Assembly: GCF_002289565.1 (NCBI RefSeq)
Contig: NZ_NTFY01000061.1
Coordinates: 124,001 to 188,000, forward strand
Direction of reading: 5' to 3'
Source: Rhodopirellula sp. SM50
Lineage (GTDB): Bacteria > Planctomycetota > Planctomycetia > Pirellulales > Pirellulaceae
Length of the DNA: 64,000 nucleotides
The notes below the pieces were generated by a model that was not told the origin of the DNA, ran no database searches, and saw nothing but the letters and a program-made list of their open reading frames with translations. The position numbers and the translations under genes were made by a program. Shown here piece after piece: positions 2-62,058 of this stretch (position 1 is the stretch's first letter; each line of letters starts with the position of its first letter).

Positions 2-370
2 GACCTGGTTCTAGAAATCCACGAAGCCAGTGTCACCAATCGCAAGGTCATGCGAGAGTTGTCCGCCGCGGTCAAAGACCTGGAAATCGAATTGGCCTTC
101 GACGACTTCGGTTCCGGACAAGCGCGGTTGGCAGAATTGATCGAAGCTCGCCCCGATTACGTGAAATTCGATATCTCGCTGATCCATGCCATCGATCACG
201 CCGATGAGCCACGGCACCGAATGCTCCAAACGCTTGTCCGTATGGTCCGCGATCTGGAAATCAAGGCGCTGGCCGAGGGCATCGAGACGTCGACCGAAGC
301 GGAGGCCTGTCAAAGGCTCGGCTTCGATCTGGCGCAGGGCTATTTCTACGGCCGCCCCGCACCGCTGTAG
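2..370 (+). CDS. EAL-domain protein, C-terminal part (cut by window edge)
   Basis: This is the 3' end of a gene that begins before the window; the frame is open from base 2 to the TAG at 368. It encodes the second half of an EAL (cyclic-di-GMP phosphodiesterase-type) domain. Visible motifs are LVLEIHEASV (the ExxE acidic motif), AFDDFGSG (the paired Asp motif), YVKFD (the Lys motif), LAEGIET (the late Glu) and the terminal AQGYFYGRP block. All positions expected to bind metal or substrate in this half are present, so activity is possible, but the EAL signature itself is outside the window. What lies N-terminal (FHA, GGDEF or receiver domains are common partners) cannot be seen. Confidence 0.85.
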   Translation, partial: DLVLEIHEASVTNRKVMRELSAAVKDLEIELAFDDFGSGQARLAELIEARPDYVKFDISLIHAIDHADEPRHRMLQTLVRMVRDLEIKALAEGIETSTEAEACQRLGFDLAQGYFYGRPAPL

Positions 371-12225: not shown

Positions 12226-12255
12226 TGCTCTGGCTACTTTTAGATTTGGGGTGCC

Positions 12256-12333: not shown

Positions 12334-12339
12334 TCGAAC

Positions 12340-12365
12340 AACGCAAGCTGGAAGCTTACGCCACT
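12340..12365. repeat. Dispersed 26-bp repeat (core CAAGCTGGAAGCTTACG)
   Basis: An identical 26-base sequence is present at 21573-21598. Its end at 12365 coincides with the last base of the stop codon of the minus-strand gene at 12365-13102, so read on that strand the element starts directly at the stop. The core contains the palindrome AAGCTT. Confidence 0.8.
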
Positions 12366-13102: not shown

Positions 13103-13298
13103 GTTGAATTCCCCGTTTAGAATGCGATCGCCTGCGTGATCTCCTGTTTTCGTTGCGTCAGGGAATTCGTTGCTGATTCTTTTTGATTTTGTCGCAATCT
13201 GTTCCGTGTCTGGCTTGATGCGGCCTGCTCTCCGTCATGCCGATTCCCGTAGATGGGGGCAAGACGATGGGTACCAACTAGAGCTTCACAGTTCGCAT

Positions 13299-13341
13299 TC
13301 TCCTTGTCTCCCTGTCTCCTTGTCTCCTTGTCTCTCCCTCC
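13299..13341. repeat. 8-bp tandem repeat (GTCTCCTT) abutting a stop codon
   Basis: About four copies of an 8-base unit, GTCTCCTT with one CCCT variant, lie at 13299-13341. On the minus strand (AAGGAGAC units) the tract begins directly after the TGA (13344-13342) of the BRCT-like/MerR/TPR gene. Confidence 0.8.
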
Positions 13342-18045: not shown

Positions 18046-18387
18046 GGCGGATGCAGGGGGGGTGGACGAACGGAGGGCTGGTCAAAAAATGGGCTGGTCA
18101 AAAAATTTCAGAATCGGCTTTGGGCTTGTGGTCGATGGCTGAGGTTTGGTCCCCCCCATTTTTTGACCACTTCATTTTTTGACCAGTCCATTTTTTGACC
18201 AGTCCATTTTTTGACCAGTCCATTTTTTGACCAGTCCATTTTTTGACCAGTCCATTTCTTGACCCGCCCATTTCTTGACCCGCCCATTTTTTGACCCGCC
18301 CATTTTTTGACCAGATTCTTTTCCATCCGATATCGTGTAGGATGCCCAGATTAACGCCCGCACGGTTCGAATTCGATTGCACCACGA
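18046..18387. other. Intergenic region before dnaX
   Basis: A 342-bp gap almost wholly taken up by the 16-bp repeat array. The last 73 bases before the dnaX ATG (18315-18387) are unique sequence and must hold the ribosome-binding region and probably the dnaX promoter; TTCCAT...TAGGAT is visible but no convincing -35/-10 pair is claimed. No gene is seen. Confidence 0.7.
18078..18314. repeat. 16-bp tandem repeat array with head-to-head copies
   Basis: Ten consecutive 16-base units (YCCATTTYTTGACCMG type) occupy 18155-18314 with no spacers. Two units in the opposite orientation (CTGGTCAAAAAATGGG, 18078-18093, and a variant to 18109) precede them, with 45 bases between. The two groups can pair as a long hairpin ending in T-rich stretches. 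The array fills the gap between the permease-CPBP gene and dnaX. The same unit recurs at 47064-47155 and 60689-60720. Confidence 0.95.
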
Positions 18388-21510: not shown

Positions 21511-21598
21511 AGTGGGGTAAGCATCTTGCTTGCCTTTCCGAGCGAAGCTCGCCTGCCTATCGATCAATGCAGAACGCAAGCTGGAAGCTTACGCCACT
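21511..21598. repeat. Head-to-head pair of the 26-bp dispersed element
   Basis: The right copy (21573-21598) is identical to 12340-12365. The left copy (21511-21536, AGTGGGGTAAGCATCTTGCT...) is a diverged inverted copy 36 bases away, so the pair can form a hairpin. Confidence 0.75.
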
Positions 21599-25859: not shown

Positions 25860-25902
25860 TAGTCGGATAGGCTTCCAGCCTGTCAAATCCAGCTCGACAC
25901 TT

Positions 25903-28444: not shown

Positions 28445-29403
28445 ACACCACTGTGTGCACACTTTTCGAAGGCCATTACCACTATGGTGTGGCGGCGTTG
28501 ACAAACTCGCTCTACCAGAACGGGTATCGCGGTAAAGTGTATGCGGGATACCGCGGGAGCCTGCCTCATTGGACGGCAGCGGCAGAGCAACGCTCCGTAG
28601 GCCAATGGCCGAACGCAATGAGTCTGCACGTGGCCGACGGCCTTGAGATCGTCTTTCTTCCGCTTGAGACACCGTATCACCTGACCAACTACAAGCCTGA
28701 CTTCATGCTCGAGTTGCTCGATGGACCGGCCGCCGAGGCGGATGCGATCTACTACTTGGATCCCGATATCTGTGTCGCCGAAGATTGGCAGGTGTTCTGC
28801 GAGTGGGTCTCCTGCGGAATAGCGCTTTGCGAGGACGTTAACTCTCCCCTTCCCGAAAACCATCCGCGGCGAGTCGGCTGGCGGCGATACTTTGAAAGCA
28901 GAGGCTTTTCGTTGAGCTTCAAAGGACGTGAATATGTCAACGGCGGTTTCATCGGCCTGCGTTCCGATGCACGAGGTTTCCTCGAGCAATGGCGCGCTCT
29001 GATGACAAGCATGGGAGACGCGATCGGCGGGCTCGGTGCCGCAAAGGTTGAACTCGGCCAGGAGTTCACGGAAAAAGGATTCTTCTCCTGTTTTGACGCG
29101 AGTGATCAGGACGGGTTGAACGCAGCGATCGAAGCGACAGACTTTGAATTCAGCGTGATCGGACAGGAAGCCATGGGGTTCAAACCCGGAGCGGCGATCT
29201 TGCCGCACGCCCTCGGCCAGCCCAAGCCCTGGAAAAAGCGTTTCCTGGCCGATTCGCTCAAAGGCAATGCCCCGAGACTGATTGACAAGGAGTTTCTGAA
29301 AAACATGAGTCCCATCGGTTGTTACATGTCCAATGAAATCTTCATTCGCAGACTTTCGTGCCTGATGGCGTCGGGGATTGGCAGGGTGGTACGCCGCGTA
29401 TGA
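28441..29403 (+). CDS. Glycosyltransferase, GT-A-like fold
   Basis: A 320-residue putative glycosyltransferase. The N-terminus TVCTLFEGHYHYGVAALTNS and the metal-binding-type motif YYLDPDICV (DxD, about residues 104-112) fit a GT-A enzyme distantly like GT8. NGGFIGLR is a typical acceptor-loop sequence. The sugar is unknown. It starts by ATGA overlap with the flippase gene. Its TGA stop (29401-29403) is the first three bases of a 15-bp repeat array into which the next gene starts. Confidence 0.78.
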   Translation: MNTTVCTLFEGHYHYGVAALTNSLYQNGYRGKVYAGYRGSLPHWTAAAEQRSVGQWPNAMSLHVADGLEIVFLPLETPYHLTNYKPDFMLELLDGPAAEADAIYYLDPDICVAEDWQVFCEWVSCGIALCEDVNSPLPENHPRRVGWRRYFESRGFSLSFKGREYVNGGFIGLRSDARGFLEQWRALMTSMGDAIGGLGAAKVELGQEFTEKGFFSCFDASDQDGLNAAIEATDFEFSVIGQEAMGFKPGAAILPHALGQPKPWKKRFLADSLKGNAPRLIDKEFLKNMSPIGCYMSNEIFIRRLSCLMASGIGRVVRRV

Positions 29404-30608
29404 ATTCGGGGCCAGTGAAATCGGGGCCAGTGATCCCTAGGCCGGTGAATTCTGGGCCAGTGCAGGGCGGATCCTACCAGAGCAGTGAAGCAGCGTTGAA
29501 AATCGTCTTTCTATGCGGCAGTCTTGAGCCCGGCCGTGATGGCGTCGGTGACTATACCCGTCGTCTGGCTGCCGAGTGTATTCGTCAGGGATGCGATGCG
29601 TCGATTCTCGCGATTTGCGATCGTGAGGACGCTCGATTCAATCCTGATCAATGGCAGATCGAGGAATATCAAAGCGACCAAGAGACTCCCGTGAGATGCA
29701 AGCGTTGGAGGCGGAATCACAACTGGGCAGTGAAGACCAAGGGACTCGCTGAGATTCTCCGGGAGGAGTCACCCGATGTGGTGAGCATTCAGTTTGTTCC
29801 CTATTCGTTCAACGCAAGGGGAGTCCCCTTCGGGTTCCTGCGATGTCTTTCGAAGTGTCGCGACATCGGTCGCTTCCAATGGCACGTCATGTTTCATGAA
29901 CTCTGGATCGGACCTCAGAAAAAGCGGCCGTTATCTGGATGGGTGATTTCACGTCTGCAACGCGAGATCGTACGGAGGTTGCAGTTTTGCAAGATCGTGC
30001 ACACGCACGTTCCCCGATACAAAGAATCGTTGGAAGGATTGGGCATTCGCGCGAATCCGCTCTCGCTGTTCAGCAACATTCCATGCACCGCGCCGGTCGT
30101 CGAGAATCATTCGAGTGGCGAAGTGCTGAACATCGGTTTTTTTTCTCAGCAGAGACCCAACGACGATGTGCGTGATTGGATCCTCGACTTCATCGCCGCG
30201 GCAACGCTGGAGGATCGAAAAGTGCGTGTGCATTTCGCGGGGGCGCTGAACCGCGTATCGGAGAGTTACTGGAAAAAACACCTCGGCGGAAAAGCGGACG
30301 TTGTGGTCCGCGGATGGATGTCTCCCGATCAAATCTCAACCTACTTGCGATCGTTGGATCTTGGGATCACCACCGTCCCGCGACAACTGATTGGAAAAAG
30401 CGGGACCGTCGCCGCATTCATCGAGCATGGGACACCGATCGCCGCTCCCTGTCGCGCCAATGCGTGCATCGGATTGTTCTGTGACAGAGACAAGCAGTTT
30501 GTCGTCGATCGTTACAGTGATCTCAAAAAGACCCCGCCAACGGTGGGACTGCAACCAGCAAAGCTTGTTTCCGTTGGCAATGCGTTTCTCAGCTCATTGA
30601 GTTCTTGA
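29400..30608 (+). CDS. GT-B glycosyltransferase with repeat-derived N-terminus
   Basis: A 402-residue protein. From about residue 31 it is a GT4-like GT-B enzyme (LKIVFLCGSLEPGRDGVGDY at the start; IGFFSQQRPNDDVRDW and AFIEHGTPIAAP in the C-terminal half). The first 25 residues (SGPVK SGPVI PRPVN SGPVQ) are a translation of a 15-bp tandem DNA repeat and have no counterpart in the family. The ATG at 29400 overlaps the previous stop (ATGA). Because every repeat contains an in-frame GTG, starts at 29415, 29430, 29445, 29460 or TTG just before the conserved part are also possible. Confidence 0.8.
   Translation: MNSGPVKSGPVIPRPVNSGPVQGGSYQSSEAALKIVFLCGSLEPGRDGVGDYTRRLAAECIRQGCDASILAICDREDARFNPDQWQIEEYQSDQETPVRCKRWRRNHNWAVKTKGLAEILREESPDVVSIQFVPYSFNARGVPFGFLRCLSKCRDIGRFQWHVMFHELWIGPQKKRPLSGWVISRLQREIVRRLQFCKIVHTHVPRYKESLEGLGIRANPLSLFSNIPCTAPVVENHSSGEVLNIGFFSQQRPNDDVRDWILDFIAAATLEDRKVRVHFAGALNRVSESYWKKHLGGKADVVVRGWMSPDQISTYLRSLDLGITTVPRQLIGKSGTVAAFIEHGTPIAAPCRANACIGLFCDRDKQFVVDRYSDLKKTPPTVGLQPAKLVSVGNAFLSSLSS
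29401..29460. repeat. 15-bp tandem repeat starting at a stop codon, inside the next gene
   Basis: Four units, TGAATTCGGGGCCAG, TGAAATCGGGGCCAG, TGATCCCTAGGCCGG and TGAATTCTGGGCCAG, run without gap. The first unit starts with the TGA stop codon of the upstream glycosyltransferase. The units resemble the TGATTCGGGGCAGAA units at 60076. Confidence 0.9.
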
Positions 30609-30643
30609 GCGAGGTGTCCAGTCTCCTCGCGAAGACGAAGCAG

Positions 30644-32916: not shown

Positions 32917-33004
32917 TGGTCGCCCTGCGATCCCTGGCTAAGTTTCCTGCCGGAACCGATCGAATCGCTCTCGCTATCCATTCGTTTTGCCAGGACGTGA
33001 TCTA

Positions 33005-34219
33005 ATGCCAGCGCCTTCCGAAGCCTCACCGATCAGCGGTTCCTTTTCCGTCTTTCTTGATCTTCTTCGTATCTACGCGGCGTTGTGTGTCTTCGTCTGC
33101 CACGCCGAGTTCGGATGGTTCGGCGATCTTTCCATTCCAGGCTTCCTGGAAGGGCACGATGCCGTCGTGGTCTTTTTCGTGCTTTCAGGATTTGTGATCG
33201 CGTACTCACAGAACCAGAACAGAAGGGAGTTCACCGATTTTGTGATCGCCCGACTGACACGGCTGTATGTGACCCTGCTGCCCGCATTGTTCTTGACTGT
33301 CGCGTGCACCATGGCCGTCGCCTACCTCAACCCGTCATTGAGCGAATCTCTATTCAAGTCGTTCGAGTCATTACGGTACGTTGTTTGTCTGCTGTTTCTG
33401 CAGGAGCTTTGGTTCCGCAACCTGACTCCAGGTTTCAACGGTCCATTGTGGTCACTCAGTTACGAGTTGTTCTATTACATTCTTTTTGCGGCGGCGACGC
33501 TCATTCGCGTCCGTTGGCTGCGGTCGGTTAGCGTCTTGTTGATCGCAGTGATCGCGGGGCCAAACATCCTATTGCTGTTGCCTGCCTGGCTCATTGGGGT
33601 TGCTGTGCTGCGGTTGGAGTCGAGGCGTCCCAGGAACGTGGTCGCACAATGGATGTTGCTGCTTGTTGGGATGGTTGTCGGAGCAGTGCTTGTCCATGGT
33701 GGTTTGGGGTTTCCCCATCGTGAAGGGCGTCCGCCGCTGAACTATTCCAGCGCGTTTGTCACCGATTGGATTCTGGCGGCGTCCGTCGGCATGATTCTGT
33801 TCGCAATGCGGGGACTGTTGCGAACAGGAGCCTCGCCAATTGTGATGAGGGTAGCTCGGAGACTCGGCGACTTGACATTCCCCGTCTACATCTTCCATTT
33901 CCCATTGCTGGCGTTCTTTGCCGCCCTGTCGGGCGCGGAAAGTTTTAATCGAGGGCCGATCAATCTGCTTGGGATTGGTTGCGCGTTTGTCGCGTCGGTG
34001 GCGTTGGGTTTGATTTCGGAACGATTTCGGCCCCGCCTTGCAAGCATGATCAAGTTGCGGTTTGCCTGGCTTCGTCGGACCATTCGACCTCGCAATCGTC
34101 CAGAGTTGGCCGCTCCGATCCAAATGGTCGTGCGTGAGTGTAATAACAAAGACGTCCTGCCTGTCATCGAGCTTCCCCCCCTGAGTCCCGTCGTGCGTTC
34201 TGCGTCTCACCAATCGTAA
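33005..34219 (+). CDS. Acyltransferase 3 family membrane protein
   Basis: A 404-residue polytopic protein of the acyltransferase 3 (OafA/ExoZ) family, which acetylates or succinylates polysaccharides across the inner membrane. Seen are the first-helix motif (FLDLLRIYAALCVFVCHAEF, with the conserved His), VVVFFVLSGFVIAYS, LWSLSYELFYYILF and the late FPVYIFHFPLLAF. The ATG at 33005 follows AGGACGTG; a TTG at 32987 is possible. The next start overlaps its stop by one base (TAATG). Confidence 0.92.
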   Translation: MPAPSEASPISGSFSVFLDLLRIYAALCVFVCHAEFGWFGDLSIPGFLEGHDAVVVFFVLSGFVIAYSQNQNRREFTDFVIARLTRLYVTLLPALFLTVACTMAVAYLNPSLSESLFKSFESLRYVVCLLFLQELWFRNLTPGFNGPLWSLSYELFYYILFAAATLIRVRWLRSVSVLLIAVIAGPNILLLLPAWLIGVAVLRLESRRPRNVVAQWMLLLVGMVVGAVLVHGGLGFPHREGRPPLNYSSAFVTDWILAASVGMILFAMRGLLRTGASPIVMRVARRLGDLTFPVYIFHFPLLAFFAALSGAESFNRGPINLLGIGCAFVASVALGLISERFRPRLASMIKLRFAWLRRTIRPRNRPELAAPIQMVVRECNNKDVLPVIELPPLSPVVRSASHQS

Positions 34220-35544
34220 TGTCGAATCGAAAAAGACAGATTCGCCGTTTGCTGTGGGCTTACTTTCTTCTGGTCATCTTTGAGGGTGCCCTGAGGAAAT
34301 GGGTCTTACCTCAGCTTGCGACGCCGCTACTTGTGATTCGAGATCCGATCTGCATCGCCGCGTTGTATTTGGGCTACAAATATTTGCTGCGAAACATTTG
34401 GGTCTGGGGCTTTGTCGGGGTCGGTCTCGTTGCGATTCCGCTGGCCGTCGGCCTCGGTCATGGCAGTCTTTCTGTGGCGCTGTTCGGCGCAAGGATTTTG
34501 GTTTTACATTTCCCGCTGTTTTTCCTTTTCCCTGCGGTCTTTGACCGGAGCGATGTGTGGGAGTTTTCGAAAGTAACATTGCTGATCGCGATCCCGATGA
34601 CGATTCTGCTGGCGATGCAATTCTATTTGCCCCAATCTCACTTCGTGAACGTAGGCGTTGGTGGCGAGGGAACGTCGGTGTTCAGCGGTGCGGGCGGTCG
34701 GCACCGCAGCGCGGGGACGTTCAGTTTTTCGAACGGTGTTGCCTGTTTCTATTCGTTAGCCGCCGCATTGTTTGTCGGCTGGTTGGTGAGCGGGCCACGA
34801 CCGCTGCCCAAATGGCTGTGGATATCGGGCGGTTGTTTAGTGATCGCGATGCCATTGGCGATCAGCCGGGCAATCGCGTTTCAATATGCGATCACATTCC
34901 TCTTCGCCGCGTTGGCGGCAGGGATTTCTCCAAGGCTTTTGAGAAACATTCTGCCTGCTTCGGTGGGGTTGGCGATTGTTGTCGCGTGCGCGTCTCAAAC
35001 GGCAGTATTTCAGACCGCGATGGAAGCGTTCAGCACCCGGTGGGAAGCAGCAACTCGAGTCGAAGGTGATGGCGAGGGCGTCGCCGGAGTTGTTGAGAAC
35101 CGGATCATTGGCTATGGGGTGCTGAGCGCATTCGAATCGATCGACAGCGTTCCCGTGACCGGGCTAGGAATTGGAATGGGGACCAATGCGGGTGCCAAGT
35201 TGCTGACCGGTAGCAGTCACGCTTTTCTGATTGCAGAGGGAGGCTGGGGGGCAACGATTGGAGAACTGGGGCCGCTGCTGGGGCTCATGATGATCATGTT
35301 TCGTGGTCTGCTGTCCGCTTCGATGACACTGCGATCACTTCTCGCTGTGAAGCTTGGCAATCCGTTGCCATTGATTCTCGGAAGCGTTGGAATCCATTCG
35401 CTGTTCATGGGAAACACCTCCCAGCCAACGGCTTTGGGTTTTATCGTGTTGAGCGGCGGGCTGATGCTGGCGGCGTTGAAAAAGCCGAGGCCTGTGTCAG
35501 AGTTGCCGGTTTCCCGTCCCAAGAGGCGATTCACGCGTGCCTAA
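34219..35544 (+). CDS. O-antigen polymerase/ligase-like membrane protein (candidate Wzy)
   Basis: A 441-residue protein with about ten to twelve hydrophobic segments and a large loop between about residues 255 and 330 (RWEAATRVEGDGEGVAGVVE, then GLGIGMGTNAGAK). That layout fits Wzy polymerases and WaaL ligases, which share little primary sequence. In an otherwise complete Wzx/Wzy locus, the polymerase that links repeat units is the likeliest role. It starts one base into the previous stop; the following gene starts with GTG inside its 3' end. Confidence 0.8.
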   Translation: MSNRKRQIRRLLWAYFLLVIFEGALRKWVLPQLATPLLVIRDPICIAALYLGYKYLLRNIWVWGFVGVGLVAIPLAVGLGHGSLSVALFGARILVLHFPLFFLFPAVFDRSDVWEFSKVTLLIAIPMTILLAMQFYLPQSHFVNVGVGGEGTSVFSGAGGRHRSAGTFSFSNGVACFYSLAAALFVGWLVSGPRPLPKWLWISGGCLVIAMPLAISRAIAFQYAITFLFAALAAGISPRLLRNILPASVGLAIVVACASQTAVFQTAMEAFSTRWEAATRVEGDGEGVAGVVENRIIGYGVLSAFESIDSVPVTGLGIGMGTNAGAKLLTGSSHAFLIAEGGWGATIGELGPLLGLMMIMFRGLLSASMTLRSLLAVKLGNPLPLILGSVGIHSLFMGNTSQPTALGFIVLSGGLMLAALKKPRPVSELPVSRPKRRFTRA

Positions 35545-36700
35545 GCTGATCATCATCGGTAATTACCCGCCGGATCGCCAGCAGAGCATGGAACGATTTG
35601 CTCAGATGCTGCAGCGTGGTGCGGAGGAACAGGGGATTGACGCGGAGATTTGGCGGCCGGAGGTGTTTTTTTCGAAAGAGCATTCGAGCACGACGTCCGG
35701 AATCGCCAAGTGGCTTGGTTACCTGGACAAATGGGTGCGTTATCCACGCGTGCTTCGTAAACGGATTGCAAAAATGCGTCGCGACGGCACGCTGCAGGAC
35801 GCTTGCTTTCACGTCGCAGATCACTCCAACGCGTACTACATGCGACAGCTTCCCCCCGACAAATCTGCCATCACATGCCACGATGTTTTGGCGATACGCG
35901 GAGCCCGGGGCGACGCGGAGGCTCACTGCCCGGCGTCGAGGACGGGCAAGTTGATGCAAGCTTGGATTCTGAAGAATCTTACAAGGTCAAAGAAGGTTGC
36001 AGCCGTCTCTCACACCACGCTCTCGCAGTTGAAGTCGCTTGCGGGATCGGTGTCCGACGCCTGTCCACCGGATCAGCGTGACTGGAGGGTCGTACTGAAC
36101 GGTTTGAATGCGCCCTTCTCCCCAATGCCCTGTCACGAGGCGAAGCCACTGCTTCAATCCGCGGGCATCGGTTCAGAAGTATCATTTCTGCTTCACATCG
36201 GTTCATCGCTGGAACGCAAGAATCGGGCGATGTTGTTGGAGATGGCTGCGAAGGCCGGAGCAAAATGGAATGGTGCGATTGTTTTTGCCGGTGCTCCGCT
36301 GACGTCAAGTCTCCAATCGCGTGCGTCGCAACTGGGACTCGCAGAGCGAGTCATTCAGGTGCACCGTCCAGATCATGAGACGTTGCGGGCTCTGTATAGC
36401 CGTTGCTTTGCGTTTGTCTTCCCGTCGTTTTCAGAAGGCTTTGGATGGCCGGTGATCGAAGCGCAGGCATGCGGGGCACCCGTGATCGCGAGCGATAGAC
36501 AGCCGATGCCAGAGGTCAGTGGCGGAGCGGCCATCCACGCGAATCCGTACGATCCGCACGCCTTTGCTGAAGCGATCGCCGAGTTACAAAACGCTTCATG
36601 TCGATGCAATCTGATTGATGCAGGCCGACTCAACTGCGAACGCTTTCAACCCGAACAGATGATGCGCAAGTATTTTGCGTTGCACGGGCTCCGTGACTGA
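35537..36700 (+). CDS. Glycosyltransferase family 4
   Basis: A 387-residue GT-B enzyme (PKLIIIGNYPPDRQQSMERF at the start). The donor half shows FLLHIGSSLERKNRAMLLEM, VIQVHRPDHETLRALYSRC and SEGFGWPVIEAQACGAPVIA (E-x7-E). It uses a GTG start that overlaps the previous gene by eight bases. The stop is directly followed by the next ATG (TGAATG). Confidence 0.9.
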   Translation: MPKLIIIGNYPPDRQQSMERFAQMLQRGAEEQGIDAEIWRPEVFFSKEHSSTTSGIAKWLGYLDKWVRYPRVLRKRIAKMRRDGTLQDACFHVADHSNAYYMRQLPPDKSAITCHDVLAIRGARGDAEAHCPASRTGKLMQAWILKNLTRSKKVAAVSHTTLSQLKSLAGSVSDACPPDQRDWRVVLNGLNAPFSPMPCHEAKPLLQSAGIGSEVSFLLHIGSSLERKNRAMLLEMAAKAGAKWNGAIVFAGAPLTSSLQSRASQLGLAERVIQVHRPDHETLRALYSRCFAFVFPSFSEGFGWPVIEAQACGAPVIASDRQPMPEVSGGAAIHANPYDPHAFAEAIAELQNASCRCNLIDAGRLNCERFQPEQMMRKYFALHGLRD

Positions 36701-37366
36701 ATGAAGAAGCTGCTCTTCCTCGCAACCATCGTTCTACCTTGGGCGATCAAGCGAATCGTTCTTCAACGCTGGCTCGGCTATCAACTCCACCCAACTGCGA
36801 GAATCGGTCTCGCTTGGATCTTTCCAAACCACTTGGTGATGGGACCGTTCTCCCGAATTGATCATTTCAGCGTCGCAATCCATCTCGACAGGTTGGAGCT
36901 TGGTGAGGAGTCTAGGATCGGGCGTGGAAACTGGATCACCGGTTTCCCGAAGAATAACCCCAAACATTTCCAGCACATTTCCGACCGGCGGCCGGAACTG
37001 ATCGTCGGTACGCAAAGCGCGATTACCAAGAACCATCATCTCGATTGTACGGAGCGCATCTTGATCGGTGACTTTGTCACCATCGCTGGATACGGATCCC
37101 AGTTTTTGACTCACTCGATTGACGTGGTGGCGAATCGTCAGGACGCACGGCCAATCACGATCGGCGACTATTGTTTCATCGGGACCGACTCGGTCGTGCT
37201 GGGAGGCGCCGTCTTGCCGCCGCGTAGCGTGCTTGGGGCAAAGTCTTTGTTGAACAACGAGTACACGGACTCGCAACAGCTCTACGCAGGTGTACCGGCC
37301 AAGCGAATCAAGAATCTCCCAGATGATGCCAAGTACTTCACCCGAGAAACGGGATTTGTGAACTAG
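36701..37366 (+). CDS. Hexapeptide-repeat (left-handed beta-helix) acyltransferase
   Basis: A 221-residue protein. A basic-hydrophobic N-terminus (MKKLLFLATIVLPWAIKRIV) is followed by hexapeptide repeats (ARIGLAWIF, LELGEESRIGRGNWITG, ILIGDFVTIAGYGSQF, ITIGDYCFIGTDSVVLGGAV). Such enzymes O-acetylate sugars using acetyl-CoA. The catalytic His is probably in FLTHSIDVVA. Its ATG follows the previous stop with no gap. Confidence 0.85.
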   Translation: MKKLLFLATIVLPWAIKRIVLQRWLGYQLHPTARIGLAWIFPNHLVMGPFSRIDHFSVAIHLDRLELGEESRIGRGNWITGFPKNNPKHFQHISDRRPELIVGTQSAITKNHHLDCTERILIGDFVTIAGYGSQFLTHSIDVVANRQDARPITIGDYCFIGTDSVVLGGAVLPPRSVLGAKSLLNNEYTDSQQLYAGVPAKRIKNLPDDAKYFTRETGFVN

Positions 37367-37370
37367 CAAA

Positions 37371-38630
37371 ATGCGAATTCTACGTGCGATTCCTACGATG
37401 GATCCAAGTTCTGGTGGTCCCTGCCAGGGGATCCGAAACCTGGTGCCGGCGCTTCAATCGCTCGGTGTCGAAGACGAGGTCGTCTGTTTGGATGATCCGA
37501 TTCGAACTGAGGATCCGTTTCCGATCCATCGTATCGGCCGGGGAGCCGGCCCTTGGGCCTACTCGGCAGCTCTCCGCCCATGGCTCGATCGAAATTTTGA
37601 GCGTTTTGACGCGGTGATTGTTCATGCCCTCTGGTTGTATCACTCTTCGGCCGTCACACGCGCAATCATAGAGCACCGCAAGCAACATGCAAAAACACCC
37701 AAGCTGTTTGTGATGCCGCATGGAATGCTGGACCCCTGGTTCCAGAACGATCCCTCAAGACGCCTGAAGGCCTACCGCAACTATCTGTACTGGAAGCTAC
37801 TCGAAAACCGCGTGATCAATCAGGCCGATGGCATCCTATTTACTTGCCAACGAGAATTGGAACTTGCACGTGAACCCTTCCGACCCTACCGACCGCGTCG
37901 CGAGTTCAATGTGGGGTATGGTGTCGCAGAACCGCCTGAGTTTTCAGAGTCGATGCGCGAACAATTCCAACAGAAGTGTCCGCAACTGGAGGGCCGATCC
38001 TTTTTGCTCTACCTCAGTCGGATTCATCCCAAGAAAGGTGTCGACAATTTGCTACGAAGTTACGCTCAGCTCGCCAAAAACCACAGCGGAACACTGCCCC
38101 CGCTTGTCGTCGCGGGACCCTTGGATTCCGCCTTTTCTCGCCAGATGCAGGCTCTCGCATCCGATCTGGGGCTAACCGATGAATCCGATGGGGGCGAGGT
38201 TGCTCCGCCTACGGTTTACTTTCCGGGAATGCTACAAGGCGACGCAAAGTGGGGCGCGTTTTACGGATGTGAAGCCATGGTATTACCCAGCCATCAAGAG
38301 AACTTCGGAATCGCGGTCGTCGAAGCTCTCGCGTGCGGAAAACCTGTGCTGATTAGCAAGCAGATCAATATCTACCAAGAAATCGTCGATGACGGAGCGG
38401 CGATCGTCGACGAGGACACCGAGGAAGGAACGTTGCGGTTGCTGCGAGGATGGGCAGAGCTTTCCAATCCACAGCGGGCCGAAATGGCGACGGCGGCAAA
38501 GTCGTGTTACACGAATCACTTCTTGCCTGAGGCTGCTGCAAAGCGATTGGTTGCCGCGATCAATGAATCCATGGCCGGAGCGATAGAAGAAAACTGGCGG
38601 CACGATCGCGTTGTCGCCGGCGTGTCCTGA
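37371..38630 (+). CDS. Glycosyltransferase family 4
   Basis: A 419-residue GT-B enzyme. N-terminal MRILRAIPTMDPSSGGPCQG carries the acceptor-side glycine loop, and FVMPHGMLDPWFQNDPSRRL is typical of exopolysaccharide GT4 proteins. The donor half has FLLYLSRIHPKKGVDNLLRS and HQENFGIAVVEALACGKPVL (E-x7-E). It lies 4 bp after the acyltransferase gene. Confidence 0.92.
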   Translation: MRILRAIPTMDPSSGGPCQGIRNLVPALQSLGVEDEVVCLDDPIRTEDPFPIHRIGRGAGPWAYSAALRPWLDRNFERFDAVIVHALWLYHSSAVTRAIIEHRKQHAKTPKLFVMPHGMLDPWFQNDPSRRLKAYRNYLYWKLLENRVINQADGILFTCQRELELAREPFRPYRPRREFNVGYGVAEPPEFSESMREQFQQKCPQLEGRSFLLYLSRIHPKKGVDNLLRSYAQLAKNHSGTLPPLVVAGPLDSAFSRQMQALASDLGLTDESDGGEVAPPTVYFPGMLQGDAKWGAFYGCEAMVLPSHQENFGIAVVEALACGKPVLISKQINIYQEIVDDGAAIVDEDTEEGTLRLLRGWAELSNPQRAEMATAAKSCYTNHFLPEAAAKRLVAAINESMAGAIEENWRHDRVVAGVS

Positions 38631-38642
38631 TGAGAGGTCTTT

Positions 38643-39221
38643 ATGTCAACTAGTGCACTATTAGATGCGTCAACGACGAATCCCAGTGAAGGTGGCGCCA
38701 GTTACTCATTGAGTAACCGGTTGCTGCGCGTGCTTTGGAAGTTCGCGTGGATCACTCTCGCCGCGTGGACGCCGGCGCCGCTGCATCGATATCGGGTCGC
38801 GATCTTGCGGTTGTTTGGTGCGGACGTCGACTGGAATGCCCACGTGTATTCGAATGTCAAGATCTGGCTTCCGAGCCATTTGACAATGGAATCGCACGCC
38901 TGCTTGGGGCCTGGGGTGAATTGCTACTGCATGGCTCCGATCAGTCTTGGTCGTGGCGCGATTGTGTCCCAGGGGACGACGCTGTGCGCGGCAACGCATG
39001 ATATCCGCGATCCAGATTTCCAGCTCGTTGCGAAGCCGATTTCGGTTGGAGCGGGGGCTTGGGTCGCGGCCGAGGCGTTTGTCGGCCCCGGAGTCAAGAT
39101 CGGTGATCGCGCCGTCGTTGGGGCACGTGCCGTCCTCTGTCGCGACGCCGAAGAGGAAGGTGTGTATGTGGGAAACCCGGCAACCTTGATCAAGAAACGT
39201 GGGGGTTCAAACTGCAAATGA
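38643..39221 (+). CDS. WcaF-like hexapeptide acetyltransferase
   Basis: A 192-residue left-handed beta-helix O-acetyltransferase close to WcaF of colanic acid synthesis. The W-rich N-terminal part (LLRVLWKFAWITLAAWTPAP) is diagnostic, followed by NAHVYSNVKIWLPSHLTMES, GAIVSQGTTLCAATHDIRDP (likely catalytic His) and VGNPATLIKKR. It starts 12 bp after the GT4 gene, and its stop overlaps the next start (ATGA). Confidence 0.9.
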   Translation: MSTSALLDASTTNPSEGGASYSLSNRLLRVLWKFAWITLAAWTPAPLHRYRVAILRLFGADVDWNAHVYSNVKIWLPSHLTMESHACLGPGVNCYCMAPISLGRGAIVSQGTTLCAATHDIRDPDFQLVAKPISVGAGAWVAAEAFVGPGVKIGDRAVVGARAVLCRDAEEEGVYVGNPATLIKKRGGSNCK

Positions 39222-40117
39222 TCGACCTAACGATCGTCATTCCGACGAAGAATGACGGCGAACGACTCTCGGAGTGCTTGCACGCGATCGGGAAAGGATT
39301 CGCGTCCGAAATCGTCGTCGTGGACTCCTGCAGCGAAGATGCGACGGCGAGTGTTGCCGCAGAGCACGGCGCGTCACTGGTGCAGTTCCAGTGGAACGGC
39401 AAGTTTCCCAAAAAGCGAAACTGGTTCCTCCGCAATCATCCGCCCGAAACCCGCTGGGTGCTGTTTTTGGATTCGGATGAAATCCTCACCGATGACTTCA
39501 AGCGAGAACTTGCCAAGACGCTGCCGGAATCAAAGGCTTGCGGGTATTGGTTGAACTACTCGATCTACTTCATGGGACAGGAATTAAAGCACGGTTATCC
39601 GCTGAAGAAGCTGGCGCTATTTCGTGTCGGGGCCGGTGAGTACGAGCGGATCGATGAATCGCGATGGAGTCACTTGGACATGGAGATTCATGAGCATCCG
39701 ATCATTGAGGGTGAGGTGGGGAAGATCGAAAGCAAAATCGATCACCGCGACTTTCGTGATGTGTCCCACTACATCGCCAAGCACAACGAATACTCCTCTT
39801 GGGAGGCACGGCGGTTCTTGCAGATGAAGTCCCTCGGCGAGACGACGATTCCGCTGACGCTCAAGCAAAAAATCAAGTATCGGTTGATCGAGTCGCCGTT
39901 TGCCGGCATCGCGTATTTCTTCGGCGCATATTTCCTGATGGGTGGTTTCCTGGACGGAAAACGCGGGCTCGCGTTCGCCCTGCTGAAGATGGGCTACTTC
40001 ACGCAGGTGTATTGCAAAATCCAGGAACTCCGGGCGGAAACACGAGAATCGACCAAGACCGAGATGGCACATTCGTTGCTCGCTGATGCTGCGGTGGCGC
40101 ATGAGCCGCAGGGGTGA
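39218..40117 (+). CDS. Glycosyltransferase family 2
   Basis: A 299-residue GT-A enzyme. LTIVIPTKNDGERLSECLHA starts the nucleotide-binding half and VLFLDSDEILTDDF holds the DxD metal motif. WaaE/KdtX-like features (KFPKKRNWFLRNHPPETRW, IEHEP-like MEIHEHPIIEG) suggest it adds a hexose to a core-like acceptor. A C-terminal hydrophobic stretch (GIAYFFGAYFLMGGF) may touch the membrane. Its TGA stop begins a 15-bp-type repeat array. Confidence 0.9.
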   Translation: MIDLTIVIPTKNDGERLSECLHAIGKGFASEIVVVDSCSEDATASVAAEHGASLVQFQWNGKFPKKRNWFLRNHPPETRWVLFLDSDEILTDDFKRELAKTLPESKACGYWLNYSIYFMGQELKHGYPLKKLALFRVGAGEYERIDESRWSHLDMEIHEHPIIEGEVGKIESKIDHRDFRDVSHYIAKHNEYSSWEARRFLQMKSLGETTIPLTLKQKIKYRLIESPFAGIAYFFGAYFLMGGFLDGKRGLAFALLKMGYFTQVYCKIQELRAETRESTKTEMAHSLLADAAVAHEPQG

Positions 40118-40243
40118 TTGATGGGGCAAAACGATGGGGCAAGACGATAAATGGCAGAATGATGGATGGCAGAATGATGGATGGCAGAATGATGGCAGGG
40201 AACTTGTCGGACTCTCTCATTGTCTTGCCCCCATCGTTTTGCC
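40115..40243. repeat. 15-bp tandem repeat starting at a stop codon, with inverted partner
   Basis: The tract begins with the TGA of the GT2 gene (40115-40117). Clear units are TGATGGATGGCAGAA at 40160-40174 and 40175-40189. Earlier, GGGGCAAAACGAT and GGGGCAAGACGAT variants occur. Inverted copies (CATTGTCTTGCC, CATCGTTTTGCC) lie at 40218-40243 and can pair with 40123-40148. The rest of the 253-bp gap to the next gene is unique and holds nothing else I can name. Confidence 0.9.
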
Positions 40244-49643: not shown

Positions 49644-49718
49644 ATGGTGTTGCGATTAAATGTGCCGAGTCCGAATGGAAATGTAATCTTCGTTGATGTC
49701 TCGCTGCATCACGCAACC

Positions 49719-49837
49719 CCAATGCCTCCCGCTTTGACGCCATGCGGGGTGTTGCTTGTTAGCGGTAGGGCGCGAGCCCTCCGGTCTTTCACGGTGTTTT
49801 TGAAACGCGACCGGACGGCTCGCGCCGTTCCGCTAAC
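49719..49837. repeat. 119-bp inverted-repeat element, copy 1
   Basis: Arms GTTAGCGGTAGGGCGCGAG (from 49758) and CTCGCGCCGTTCCGCTAAC (to 49837) are imperfect inverted repeats. Upstream flank (CCCAATGCC...TTTGACGCCA) and core (CTCCGGTCTTTCACG, CCGGACGGCTCGCGCC) are shared with 61949-62058. It has the form of a REP-type or MITE-like element and sits between a plus and a minus gene that converge. Confidence 0.85.
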
Positions 49838-58558: not shown

Positions 58559-60078
58559 AACCCCTGCCTGGATGCCGTCTGTCTCAAGCATGGTGCCCAT
58601 GGAGTTGGCCGAAATCGTTTCGACGAGACGCTTACTTTGTCGCGACTTGTTTCGGACTGCTGATTTGGCTCGCTGGGTGTGAGCACGCAACCCGAGAAAC
58701 GAACGGTGGCGGCGTGCCTCACTCCGCTGCTTCGACTTCGAACGCTTCAAACGGCGCGGCCGAAATCCAGGTCCACCAACGACGGAGTTCTGAACCGAAG
58801 CCAAACGCGCGTCCGATTCTTGATGGCGCCCCCACGAACGAAGCACGAATGCCCGCTCCGGCGGCGGCTGCCCTGCCGAGGGACACGCCGACGGATTCGC
58901 TGACGGCGGCCGCAGCGGGCAAACTTGCCACCGAAGCCTTGCGCAGCGGTGACATCGACGCGGCCTACCAACACGCGCGGGTCGCGATGTCCCAGACGCC
59001 CGAGGATCCGCAAGTGATCTTCTTGATGGCTCGTGTGCTGGGGTTGCGACACCGATTTCCCGAAGCGGTCCGGATGCTCGATCGACTGGCGGTCGCCCAT
59101 CCGGAAACCCGCTTACCCACTTTGGGACAGACGTCTGAGTGGCTTGTTCTGCACGGCGACTACGCGGGCGCCGAATCACGCCTGCGAAGGATCTTGGACG
59201 ATGCGCCCGATGCCATGATGGCCCATCGCGCGCTGGCAAACTTGCTGCTCGGCTTGGGAAGACGTCTCGAAGCGGCCGATCACCTTCGGACCCTCTGTCG
59301 CCAGGGGGACATCCAGGAATCGGAGCTGCTTTCCTTGTTCCATGTCTCGATCCCGATCGCTGGGACTGGTGTGACCGAGCCCCTGAATGATCTGGCCGCG
59401 TCGCTCGACTTGATCGCCGCGAACCAACTGCAAGAGGCGCGTCGCCTGTTGCTTGAATCTTCGCTTCACGACGCCGATCACAACGCACTGCTCGGACGAG
59501 TCTTGGTGCTTCTTCATGACACCAAGGGGCTTGAGGAATGGATCCCGAACCCAAACCCGGACCGCAGCGATAGCCATACTTGGTTCGCCATGGGGGCACA
59601 GCATGCCTGGTCGGGTGACCACGCATCGGCGACACGATGTTTTTGCGAAGCCGTCCTGCAAGATCCCACGGATGGCCAGGCGTATGAATTATTGAGTCGA
59701 TCGCTGTCCGAATTGGGACAGCAAGAATCTTCGCATGCTGCGGCCGAGCGCGCCGAACTGATCGAGCAGACCCAGGTCATCGCCGCGGGGTTGAAGCCAT
59801 CGGCCGACCAGCGACTGGCTCAGATCGACGAGCTGGTGCAGATTCTTGAACAACTGGGGCGTCGTGACGAGGCCCTCGCCTGGCAGTCCGTGCAAGTGCT
59901 GTACGGGCAATCGGTGCTCACCAAACAACAGGCGATCGAGCGGATGCGGCAGATCAATCAGCGTCGGTTGGAGCTTCGTCAATCCGGTGGATTTGGGCCC
60001 GGTGATCCGTTTGTCGTTTGCGGCGTGGAGCTGGATGGGTTGGTGGGGGGAGAGTTGGGGAGAAGGGAGGCAGAATGA
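58555..60078 (+). CDS. TPR lipoprotein partner of the heptahaem cytochrome
   Basis: A 507-residue protein. The N-terminal helix ends in LLIWLAGC, a clear lipobox. After a disordered stretch, residues about 110-500 are TPR repeats (SGDIDAAYQHARVAMSQTPE, GDYAGAESRLRRILDDAPDA, LLLGLGRRLEAADHLRTLCR, LGRRDEALAWQSVQVLYGQS). It starts by ATGA overlap with the cytochrome gene. A related TPR arrangement is fused to FG-GAP in the divergent CRTAC1 gene. The TGA stop at 60076-60078 is the first triplet of a 15-bp-type repeat unit. Confidence 0.88.
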   Translation: MKPLPGCRLSQAWCPWSWPKSFRRDAYFVATCFGLLIWLAGCEHATRETNGGGVPHSAASTSNASNGAAEIQVHQRRSSEPKPNARPILDGAPTNEARMPAPAAAALPRDTPTDSLTAAAAGKLATEALRSGDIDAAYQHARVAMSQTPEDPQVIFLMARVLGLRHRFPEAVRMLDRLAVAHPETRLPTLGQTSEWLVLHGDYAGAESRLRRILDDAPDAMMAHRALANLLLGLGRRLEAADHLRTLCRQGDIQESELLSLFHVSIPIAGTGVTEPLNDLAASLDLIAANQLQEARRLLLESSLHDADHNALLGRVLVLLHDTKGLEEWIPNPNPDRSDSHTWFAMGAQHAWSGDHASATRCFCEAVLQDPTDGQAYELLSRSLSELGQQESSHAAAERAELIEQTQVIAAGLKPSADQRLAQIDELVQILEQLGRRDEALAWQSVQVLYGQSVLTKQQAIERMRQINQRRLELRQSGGFGPGDPFVVCGVELDGLVGGELGRREAE

Positions 60079-60187
60079 TTCGGGGCAGAATGATGAGGGC
60101 AAAACAATGGGGGCAAAACAATGGAGGCAAGACAATGGGGGCAAGACCATGCGGGCGAGACGGTGGGTGCAGGATGATGGGGGAATG
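60069..60187. repeat. 15-bp-type tandem repeat starting at a stop codon
   Basis: Units GGCAGAATGATTCGG, GGCAGAATGATGAGG, then variants GCAAAACAATGGGGG, GCAAGACAATGG, GCAAGACCATGCGG and GCAGGATGATGG continue for about 115 bases. In TGA-phase the unit is TGATTCGGGGCAGAA, whose first triplet is the stop codon of the TPR lipoprotein gene. Confidence 0.9.
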
Positions 60188-60276: not shown

Positions 60277-60675
60277 ATGTATTACAAGCTATTCGCCGAC
60301 CTGACCGTTGCGATTCACTTCGGTTACGTGGCGTTCGTCGTGTTGGGGGTTCCGCTCACGATCTTCGGCGCATGGAGGGGTTGGGGCTGGGTGCGGAACC
60401 GCTGGTTTCGCGGCATTCATTTGACGATGATACTGGTCGTCGTCTTGGAAGCCTGGGCGGGCGTGACGTGCCCGCTGACGACGCTAGAAAGGGACTTTCG
60501 GTCGGCCGCGGGAGGGCAGGCGTACCAAGGCGACTTCATCGCCAATTGCCTGCACGAGGCGATGTTTTTTGACCTGCAACCGTGGGTCTTCACGGTCATT
60601 TACACGCTGTTCGGTGCGTTGGTCGTCGCCACGCTGCTGCTCGTCCCGCCGCGCTGGCGAGGGCAACGCGGCTGA
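60277..60675 (+). CDS. DUF2784 family membrane protein
   Basis: A 132-residue protein with four helices: LTVAIHFGYVAFVVLGVPLT, GIHLTMILVVVLEAWAGVTC, a shorter AMFFDLQPWVFTVIYTLF and LVVATLLLVPP. The CPLTTLERDFR segment after the second helix is the DUF2784 signature. Function unknown. GGAGG precedes an ATG at 60270 and the start at 60277. Two copies of the 16-bp repeat begin 13 bp after its stop. Confidence 0.85.
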   Translation: MYYKLFADLTVAIHFGYVAFVVLGVPLTIFGAWRGWGWVRNRWFRGIHLTMILVVVLEAWAGVTCPLTTLERDFRSAAGGQAYQGDFIANCLHEAMFFDLQPWVFTVIYTLFGALVVATLLLVPPRWRGQRG

Positions 60676-60688
60676 CGGTAAAAAGAGG

Positions 60689-60720
60689 TTGGTCAAAAAA
60701 TGGGTTGGTCAAAAAATGAC
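60689..60720. repeat. Two copies of the 16-bp repeat
   Basis: TTGGTCAAAAAATGGG (60689-60704) and TTGGTCAAAAAATGAC (60705-60720) lie head to tail just after the DUF2784 gene. They match the arrays at 18078-18314 and 47064-47155 in unit and period. No inverted partner is seen here. Confidence 0.93.
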
Positions 60721-60902: not shown

Positions 60903-60951
60903 ATCCCTAACAGCTAATTGCTAATTGCTAATTGCTAACAGCTAATTGCTA
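60903..60951. repeat. 7-bp tandem repeat beginning with a stop codon
   Basis: On the minus strand seven heptamers (TAGCAAT, TAGCTGT, TAGCAAT x3, TAGCTGT, TAGGGAT) run from 60951 to 60903. The first TAG (60951-60949) is the stop codon of the DUF6263-like gene. Confidence 0.92.
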
Positions 60952-61812
60952 CGGCCGACGGGCGGTTCGAACGACGCTGTCGATCAGTTGTTCGGTCATC
61001 CGGGCGCGGTATTCCATCATGCTGTTGGGGCCTTGGAACCCGACCACGGTCTCGTCCCAATTGAGTTCTTTGCTGATCATGTGACCGGCGTCCAGGTCGA
61101 ACTTGATCGTGCCGTTGCTGAGTTGTTGGACGACTTGGGCCCGCACGGATTCTTCTTCGATCGGCGTCAGCGGTTCACTGCGGACGGACAACGTGGCGAC
61201 GCCGGATTTCACTTTTTCCAGCGTGTAGAGTTCACGGATCTTGATCGGTTTGACCAACCCGTCTTCGGTCCGCGTCTTGATTTCTCGGGGGATCGCCCAG
61301 GAGTCGCCGATCGCGATCGGTTCATCGGGCAAGGCCAGGGACAGCGAGCCCATTCCCAGTGACGCTTTACTGCCGCCGTTGTCTTGGCGGTCGGTTTCTT
61401 GGCCGCGTGGGTTGATCGTCACGGTGGCCAGTGTTTTCCCGATCTGCTCGGCCACTTTGGAGAACACACGGGGGGGTGTTTCGCCGGATTGGCTGGACCA
61501 CCGGATCTCTTCTTTGTCGCCTTGTTGCTGGGTCATTTCGACAGAATCGACGACATGATCGAACGTCATTTCGTCGCCGTCGACGTGCGTGACGGCCCAA
61601 TGCCGGTGGCTGACGGTGTGGACCTGTGAGATTTCCTCGTCGCCTTTGAGCCGGGTCTTGGTCTTTGCCACATGCGTGACTTCGTAGCTGAGTTTTTGCC
61701 CGCCGGTCAACGAATAACGCAGCAAGTATTTGGTCGATTCATCATCGGCGGCAAAGCCGGTCGACCCCAAGGTGGCGAGGGTGAATGCGATGGCGAGGCA
61801 ATAACGGTCCAC
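60949..61812 (-). CDS. Exported DUF6263-like protein
   Basis: A 287-residue secreted protein. A GTG at 61812 with AAGGAG about 11 bases upstream opens a clean signal peptide (RYCLAIAFTLATLGSTGFAA). The mature part resembles DUF6263 of planctomycetes: LLRYSLTGGQKLSYEVTHVA, HRHWAVTHVDGDEMTFDHVV, ALPDEPIAIGDSW and IKFDLDAGHMISKELNWDET. The fold is probably beta-rich; function unknown. The frame continues upstream of the GTG into the inverted-repeat element and is not coding there. Its TAG stop is the first unit of a heptamer tract. Confidence 0.8.
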   Translation of the reverse strand: MDRYCLAIAFTLATLGSTGFAADDESTKYLLRYSLTGGQKLSYEVTHVAKTKTRLKGDEEISQVHTVSHRHWAVTHVDGDEMTFDHVVDSVEMTQQQGDKEEIRWSSQSGETPPRVFSKVAEQIGKTLATVTINPRGQETDRQDNGGSKASLGMGSLSLALPDEPIAIGDSWAIPREIKTRTEDGLVKPIKIRELYTLEKVKSGVATLSVRSEPLTPIEEESVRAQVVQQLSNGTIKFDLDAGHMISKELNWDETVVGFQGPNSMMEYRARMTEQLIDSVVRTARRP

Positions 61813-61948
61813 GGTTCCGGTCTCCTTACACTGACTCGAGTTGAAGGTGGGCCGTGAAACTCGCAGATTCGCAATCGCGGTGCAAGAGCGATTGGTGTGG
61901 CTCCTCGGAAGCCCGGAGCGGTTGGCACAACGCTTGCCGGTCGTGTCA

Positions 61949-62058
61949 GCCCAATGCCACATCCTTTGACGCCAAGCGGTGTGTTTTTTGTTAGCGGCAG
62001 GGCGCGAGCTCTCCGGTCTTTCACGTTGCAACCGGACGGCTCGCGCCGTTCCGCTAAC
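61949..62058. repeat. 110-bp inverted-repeat element, copy 2
   Basis: The same element as 49719-49837 in the same orientation. Arms GTTAGCGGCAGGGCGCGAG (from 61990) and CTCGCGCCGTTCCGCTAAC (to 62058) are joined by a loop that is 11 bases shorter, and the upstream flank CCAATGCC...TTTGACGCCA is also conserved. It lies between the sulfatase and the DUF6263-like gene. Confidence 0.85.

Follow-up and report, generated by a model that had tools for sequence, protein, structure and literature searches.

Repeats at gene ends of the window

We analyzed a 64,000-nucleotide stretch of the Rhodopirellula sp. SM50 genome (hereafter the window; contig NZ_NTFY01000061.1, positions 124,001 to 188,000), numbering positions from its first letter. 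A DUF6263-like gene on the minus strand (60949-62031; PF19777 match, E 5.5e-7) ends in TAG, and an array of TTAGCNN heptamers (TAGCAAT TAGCTGT TAGCAAT and so on; 60907..60951, minus strand) has its first unit on this stop, such that TAG 60951-60949 forms the first three bases of the array. A preliminary description of this DNA had reported this arrangement correctly and had held, more broadly, that short tandem repeats of unrelated types begin exactly at stop codons. Of its six examples from the window, three lie at or directly past a stop and three are merely near one. A 15-bp array, TGAATTCGGGGCCAG (29401..29462, plus strand), begins on the TGA of gene 28441-29403. The REP hairpin GTGGCGTAAGCTTCCAGCTTGCG (12342..12364, minus strand) is found immediately 3' of TGA 12367-12365, in agreement with the report of a 26-bp element abutting that codon; a second exact copy (21575..21597, minus strand) does not adjoin a stop.

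Fifteen-bp repeats had been placed on the TGA of three genes, which is accurate for 29401 and not for the other two. At 40115, 14/15-bp G-rich arrays (40120..40195, plus strand) start past TGA 40115-40117 of gene 39218-40117, with a 13/14-bp array 2 nt and a 15-bp array 33 nt beyond it, and the 14-bp unit has an inverted partner (TCATTGTCTTGCCCCCATCGTTTTGCC on the plus strand) at 40217..40243 on the minus strand. At 60076, an array with units GGCAGAATGAT and GGGGCAAAACAATG (60069..60183, plus strand) has the TGA of gene 58849-60078 within its first unit, GGCAGAATGAT, which starts within the reading frame, 7 nt ahead of the TGA. These repeats also do not make up a single 15-bp type but fall into two families: those at 40115 and 60076 belong to a 14-bp family (GGGGCAAAACGATG / GGCAGAATGAT), outside which the array at 29401 falls. 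The 8-bp tract assigned to TGA 13344 (GGAGACAA; 13299..13334, minus strand) starts, in gene direction, at 13334, 7 nt past TGA 13344-13342 of a MerR/TPR gene.

Further repeats follow genes elsewhere in the window. A 16-bp array, GGTTGGTCAAAAAATG (60687..60718, plus strand), starts 11 nt past the TGA of gene 60277-60675, and a REP-like hairpin, GGATAGGCTTCCAGCCTGTC (25865..25884, plus strand), lies 5 nt past the TAA of gene 24225-25859, its tag degenerate, with GTC where GTG is expected. Past gene 15961-18045, 16-bp arrays at 18075..18106 (plus strand) and 18156..18314 (minus strand) are inverted relative to each other.

The window holds other dispersed elements as well. An inverted repeat at 12264-12325 (AAAAGGGGTCAGGTACC ... 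GGTACCTGACCCCTTTT) separates convergent genes and resembles a two-way terminator in addition to being a repeat; its arm occurs in 11 copies in 1.82 Mb, 6 of them with an inverted partner. Another dispersed inverted element, with ends GTTAGCGGAACGGCGCGAGCCGTCCGGT, is present at 49718-49837 and 61950-62058 and is found at several stops in one strain while missing in the other. Its TTAGCGG end is identical to a unit of one heptamer array (C61), which may be descended from it. At about 27300-38600, genes with weak coding scores, mostly 30-60% identical to otherwise similar sister regions, are bounded by a sugar transferase gene and a glycosyltransferase gene; this block is probably a variable polysaccharide locus.

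An excess of arrays just past stop codons

The preliminary description had proposed comparing array-to-stop distances with random positions, and we carried out this comparison on 1.82 Mb of the 9.8-Mb genome (19%), taken as stretches and partly chosen, in that contigs with heptamer or transposase matches were included deliberately. Gene calls came from a home-made caller based on an inhomogeneous Markov model, and TRF supplied the tandem arrays; 313 merged arrays yielded 165 that were noncoding, 148 that lay between two called genes and 120 with at least one stop side. For the null, each array was placed randomly in its own gap, with 0, 60 or 120 bp upstream of starts kept free. Thirty-seven of the 120 arrays started 0..15 nt from the first base of a stop, against null means of 14.1, 18.0 and 20.9, respectively, a count reached in 0 of 2000 simulations. 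In this 19% of the genome distances were shorter than random, and the claim that repeats of differing families share closeness to stops is supported. The excess persisted when we excluded the window (31/111 against 13.5-18.1; 0 of 2000 simulations) and when we excluded both the window and the three contigs chosen for heptamers (28/103 against 12.1-16.2); a first pass over 1.17 Mb had given 26/79 against 8.7-11.1.

This excess is due mainly to dispersed families, namely GTGG/GTAG-tagged REP hairpins, a 14-bp G-rich unit and TTAGCNN heptamers. Starts at 0..15 nt were found for 12/26 REP arrays (4.4-7.4 expected), 6/13 14-mer arrays (1.4-2.6) and 3/4 TTAGC heptamer arrays (0.5), together with 2/7 16-mer arrays (0.6-0.8) and 2/6 8-mer arrays (0.3-0.5), the last two being too few for significance alone. 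On contigs not chosen for them, the four non-REP named families gave 7/18 against 1.6-2.0. The remaining arrays gave 12/64 against 7.1, 8.6 and 9.1, reached in 61, 219 and 300 of 2000 simulations, and those among them with a TRF score of at least 70 gave 5/35 against 4.4-4.5. Because the excess is carried mainly by dispersed families and is at most weak among other arrays, the property common to these repeats is dispersal rather than tandem repetition; REP hairpins counted singly place the same way. In G000, 14-mer and related arrays sit at the very ends of contigs C3, C39 and C60 and likewise at loci L040 and L048. The assembly thus breaks at arrays of the 14-mer type, so long arrays were probably undercounted.

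These counts bear on replication slippage, suggested earlier as a hotspot mechanism, under which arrays would grow by local duplication of a segment containing the stop. We observed one clear case, extra copies in a sister strain (G127) of a 19-bp unit containing the stop of gene 2-370, and the 15-bp array at 29401 does begin on its stop. Arrays outside the named families, however, are the expected product of slippage, and they are weakly enriched at most here and number 2/27 against 2.7 in other genomes; slippage is therefore not the main cause, and as a general explanation it is very improbable.

A second possibility, that the pattern reflects chance or a gene-calling artefact in which open reading frames run into arrays and end at the first stop met, draws on the fact that some arrays overlap the called stop and that a repeat can supply it, as seven GTAG REPs do. 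Yet arrays overlapping the stop (-20..-1) were not in excess (17 against 17.9-23.3 expected), while those at 0..15 were enriched, which argues against reading frames running into arrays, and orthologs that lack the array end at the same codon. We consider this the least probable of the explanations weighed here.

We also measured repeats without reference to families, as 16-mers present in at least four 500-bp bins; 12-mer masks were dropped in favor of 16-mers as too short, with 27.8% coverage in coding sequence. By this measure, dispersed 16-mers make up 0.06% of coding DNA; past stops their share is 8.5% in the first 10 nt and rises to ~30% by 70 nt, but in the final 20 nt ahead of starts it is 0.6%. 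Their first edges are commonest 4-28 nt past stops, after which they drop about two-fold, in convergent gaps likewise, and dispersed elements still often start 20-40 nt past stops. Both the strong 3' over 5' asymmetry and the starts at 20-40 nt fit an explanation by tolerance and deletion, in which insertions occur anywhere, are purged from coding sequence and promoters, and are drawn to the stop by deletion. The excess nonetheless persists in convergent gaps, which impose no promoter to avoid (non-REP arrays 13/28 against 5.4), and arrays outside the named families pass the same filter with a weak excess at most.

REP hairpins, inverted pairs and orientation

The REP hairpins of this genome have a GTGG or GTAG tag ahead of a stem of 7-8 bp, whose loop is 3 nt long (GTGGGATAGGCTTCCAGCCTGTC, GTGGCGTAAGCTTCCAGCTTGCG, GTGGGGTAAGCATCTTGCTTGCC, GTAGGTCACGCTGTGCGTGAC and others), and their stem pairs covary between types. 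In 1.17 Mb there were 164 noncoding GTRG hairpins with stems of at least 7, while eight control tetranucleotides gave 10-78. Of the GTRG hairpins no farther than 15 nt from a stop, 42 were sense and 1 antisense; the controls had 1-5 in each orientation. REP clusters comprised 31 sense and 0 antisense at 0-15 nt past stops, and only 3/147 clusters fell in coding sequence. One stem type alone has 316+266 matches in the genome with up to 2 mismatches. Copies also occur in direct tandem (~25-34 bp), and the seven GTAG REPs mentioned above provide the gene's own TAG. They thus share several features of the GTAG superfamily of REPs, being tagged hairpins of 20-40 bp, present in high copy, intergenic, often in inverted dimers and close to the 3' ends of ORFs.

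REPs are held to move by single-stranded DNA (ssDNA) transposases. We found eight Y1_Tnp genes in the genome, none clearly tied to the common REPs; of six encoded proteins scanned, four scored as IS200/IS605 and two as REP-associated tyrosine transposase, the latter below the NCBIfam cut-off. The sole common GTGG REP seen near such a gene is ~0.7 kb away (L075). At another locus (L071; G000:C46 near 168400), an IS200/IS605-like transposase gene has four GTAG hairpins, GTAGCCTRGGGCAACGCCCYAGG, around it, which are of a different stem type with 0 copies in the 1.82-Mb sample.

Opposite-strand partners within 150 nt were present for 77/147 REP clusters (random mean 3.4), 24/56 14-mer clusters (0.3) and 14/25 16-mer clusters (0.05), or about half of clusters in the 14-bp and 16-bp G-rich families, and for none of the 8-mers (0/9) or TTAGC heptamers (0/5). 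Since these numbers are far above random, many REP, 14-mer and 16-mer clusters are inverted pairs, which are oriented by their own symmetry and so explain a good part of the sense bias. REP clusters without a visible partner were all sense at 0-15 nt (13 to 0), while at 31-120 nt 19 were antisense and 11 sense, the mixture expected of decayed pairs.

Heptamers close to stops have TTAGCNN or GAAACYT as their unit, or one of a few other units. All five TTAGC clusters in the sample are sense and start -4..+11 from a stop; GAAACYT heptamers are an exception, for three of their six clusters lie at -40..15 relative to a stop and each of these is antisense. Among non-REP arrays near stops, the sense strand had more G than C in 29 and more C than G in 6 (n=38), against 26 and 26 farther away (n=58); the G-rich strand was sense in 14/14 arrays of the named families and in 15 versus 6 of the others. 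We also looked for a common GGAG- or GTAG-like tag ahead of the non-REP arrays, and this candidate was dropped, the k-mer scan past stops being dominated by REPs and giving no clear tag.

Fixed orientation and a G-rich sense strand would also be expected of functional 3' parts, that is, if hairpin or G-rich RNA acted on ribosome release, mRNA decay or 3' ends and strains swapped equivalents. In keeping with this, flanks with repeats fold to -18.9 kcal/mol against -15.7 for shuffled sequence, compared with -15.7 against -14.9 for repeat-free flanks, and an earlier study, cited in the portion of PMC12306157 considered here, reported lowered translation where E. coli REPs lie fewer than 16 nt away from a stop. 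Heptamers and 8-mers, however, are distinct from REP hairpins and lack inverted partners, and TTTT in the first 60 nt is no commoner in flanks with repeats (35/240) than in those without (70/411), so the repeats are not general intrinsic terminators. That role had been considered and was set aside for the repeats as a whole; individual families, GGGGTCAGGTACC for example, may behave otherwise. Scanning 12150-13450 for consensus terminators returned 2 hits against 1.9 expected, and Rfam gave no match in the window at gathering scores.

Turnover behind conserved stops in sister strains

Of 13 genomes searched, counting the window's own, 12 have an ortholog of gene 60949, and in seven relatives compared the DUF6263-like protein ends at the same place, one having 1 extra residue. 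Two of these relatives (G119 and G120) and four more distant ones carry the stop (TAG in five, TAA in one) and no such repeat, while G127, which is assigned to the same genus as the window and whose protein is 98% identical, has a heptamer array with a different unit. Because relatives have the same stop without the array, the array settled on a pre-existing TAG at 60949.

Other stops of the window were compared with the sister strains as well. Behind gene 24225-25859, where this genome has the REP-like hairpin, G127 has an 8-mer unit and G119 a heptamer-like array. The REP at TGA 12367-12365 is the same in G119 and is represented in G127 by a different GTGG-initial sequence. G119 further has a TAG and a shorter 8-bp array at the same stop of the MerR/TPR gene, a 14-mer array at the same stop as gene 39218-40117, and an array of the 16-bp GGTTGGTCAAAAAATG type that begins 1 nt past the TGA of the ortholog of gene 60277-60675. 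In G127, the ortholog of gene 58849-60078 keeps its TGA and lacks the 14-bp array, and that of gene 28441-29403 ends in TGA followed by unrelated sequence. The stretch of G120 examined is not syntenic over the window (3/40 orthologs).

We compared 58 orthologous 3' flanks with G127 (median four-fold site identity 0.864). Flanks were continuous from the stop in 19/58 cases against G127 and 12/32 against G119; the 39 non-continuous G127 flanks comprised 20 without detectable homology and 19 with homology starting elsewhere. Because some non-continuous flanks keep a short homologous stretch past the stop, we applied an anchored test to the first 15 and 30 nt, which were non-homologous in 30/58 and 33/58 flanks, respectively, for G127 and in 15/32 and 13/32 for G119. 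Homology breaks past stops occurred at 49 per 1000 positions at 0-6 nt, 5.9-6.3 at 7-60 nt and 2.8 at 61-150 nt, and upstream of starts at 9.3, 3.7 and 1.7, and 3.5 over the same ranges, rates that derive from gapped alignment of the 61/87 flanks with usable homology and include some breaks that are noise or reach the coding end.

This genome has a repeat within 70 nt in 25/39 non-continuous versus 4/19 continuous flanks for G127 (p = 0.002), and in 14/20 versus 4/12 for G119 (p = 0.05). Among the 39 non-continuous G127 flanks, a repeat was found in both strains in 10, in this genome only in 15, in the sister only in 1 and in neither in 13. Sister repeats thus sit where this genome has one in 10/11 cases (p = 0.03 for G127; p = 0.28 for G119). 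The repeat set, however, was drawn mostly from this genome, and the ten include cases of the same element in both strains. Same-stop repeats in both strains are what exchange of functional 3' parts would leave, but 15 of the 39 flanks have an element here and none detected in the sister. Function at termination is the main rival to the ssDNA landing that we propose below, and we judge it possible, if unlikely.

Some differences look like insertions right at the stop: 131 nt at +2 in this genome are missing from G127, and 38 extra nt are present in G127 at +1. Such differences, which keep a short copy in the sister, speak against tolerance and deletion as a sufficient account, while the 20/58 flanks without any detectable homology to G127 favor it; on balance, we regard that account as unlikely. 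Given the excess at stops and the differing repeats behind the same stop in different strains, gene ends look like recurrent landing sites for repeats.

Distribution in other genomes

The exact double 14-mer occurs in Stieleria sedimenti ICT_E10.1, Rhodopirellula sp. JC639 and TBK1r (46 stretches); with up to 3 mismatches it is found in 1/119 family genomes, which is the present one, three genomes of the same genus in that set being without it. In the 44 of these stretches that were long enough to use, arrays of the 14-mer lay near stops in 12/47 cases against 4.7-6.7 expected, and 14-mer clusters at 0-15 nt were 12 sense and 1 antisense. Arrays other than the 14-mer showed no excess in the same 44 stretches (2/27 against 2.7-3.2), and arrays in general showed no significant excess in an independent 340 kb of sister genomes (4/23 against 2.7-2.8). 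A further 160 kb, syntenic with the window and hence not independent of it, gave 5/16 against 1.2-1.7. The comparison with relatives that had been suggested therefore upholds stop proximity for 14-mer arrays and, in these small samples, not for arrays in general.

Heptamers of the TTAGC type occur in 25/119 family genomes. In six genomes of other genera, 7/38 clusters start -4..+11 from a stop in sense orientation; the count for G096 is 0/17. At two loci of that genome (L145 and L146), TTAGC arrays recur every few hundred bp within larger repeated modules, which are possibly cassette-like. One REP stem type is present in 39/119 family genomes, and in G109, of another genus, a search allowing 2 mismatches gave 588 places (an exact match gave 1); among the first 30 of them, 6/12 REP clusters begin in sense orientation at -9..+6 relative to a stop.

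A proposed explanation

The observation in the preliminary description is partly confirmed, and its interpretation partly supported. Direct results of the comparison are a joint excess at stops, a fixed orientation in most families, a headline stop older than its array and flanks that often differ from the stop on. Our preferred reading, to which we assign a probability of roughly one half (about 0.52), is that independent dispersed families repeatedly land on, expand in and replace DNA right past existing stops, the families being GTGG/GTAG REP hairpins and inverted REP pairs, 14-bp and 16-bp G-rich units, 8-bp units and TTAGCNN heptamers.

Insertions right past a stop would survive because they harm neither the protein nor the next promoter, the first base past the stop being presumably the first spot where both are spared. 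Within the 3' flank there may be an additional local preference, of ~2-3 fold, most likely because the non-template strand is single-stranded immediately behind the last ribosome translating the gene. Such exposed ssDNA would be a suitable substrate both for IS200/RAYT-type transposition of REPs and for the growth of G-rich arrays; we favor this cause because REPs are held to use ssDNA transposases and because stop-near arrays are G-rich in sense. Once placed within 15 nt, REPs might also affect translation termination, by analogy with what is reported for E. coli.

In a stricter version, the edge of translation would itself be the target: the transcript would re-anneal behind the terminating ribosome, and the exposed non-template ssDNA would take up any ssDNA-using element or G-rich array regardless of family, which would yield convergence of unrelated repeats on stops, fixed orientation and mutual replacement. 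We consider this version improbable.

Comparison with known systems

The preliminary description knew of no described stop-anchored set of repeats; the parts of PMC3733652 (for REPs) and PMC4692102 (for heptamers) that we compared describe just such placement. According to those parts of PMC3733652 (Di Nocera et al. 2013), REPs in convergent gaps mostly lie <20 bp from ORF 3' ends in two species, GTAG termini often supply the TAG stop, and Planctomycetes are among the named hosts. The REPs described here resemble that GTAG superfamily in being GTAG/GTGG-tagged hairpins, present in high copy, intergenic, often in inverted dimers and near ORF 3' ends, and in supplying TAG stops from GTAG termini, with 7 cases here. 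They differ in that stems vary by lineage and that direct tandem copies (~25-34 bp) occur, as judged from the same parts, which contain neither other repeat families at the same stops nor exchange between strains.

For the arrays, the nearest counterparts are the G-rich heptamers of Xanthomonas, which adjoin or overlap stops on the sense strand in the sections of PMC4692102 considered. The Xanthomonas and Nostoc heptamers of those sections and the arrays studied here are alike short-unit tandem arrays with a G-rich sense strand at or near stops; units there are GGGAATC or GGGGA(T/C)T, whereas those here are 14, 16 and 8 bp long or TTAGCNN. Beggiatoaceae TAACTGA heptamers, by the excerpted text of PMC4679880, mostly point at start codons and end just before them. 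They share with the present arrays an intergenic heptamer structure, stops in all frames and, in some cases, overlap with the upstream gene's stop, but repeats here are rare near starts. Heptamer repeats (STRR) are known from cyanobacteria too. The part of PMC12306157 drawn on here cites ribosome stalling by E. coli REPs within 15 nt of stops; hairpins of our genome fall in the same hairpin-stop distance class. In the open-licence literature, we found no paper on planctomycete or Stieleria repeats at stops, and a literature search for insertion sites at stops and for R-loops and stops returned nothing pertinent.

Published work thus already covers both REPs beside stops and heptamers on them, and the pattern here extends known REP placement. 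What is new, as far as the literature searched goes, is that several families share one kind of site and are exchanged between strains at the same stop. Stop-near REPs have so far been read as function, through mRNA stability or ribosome stalling; here, unrelated families share the site, relatives lack or swap them, and arrays outside these families have weak or no bias. The question of what 3' repeats do can accordingly be recast as a testable one of landing place versus translation end, with sister-strain sites available to test it on.
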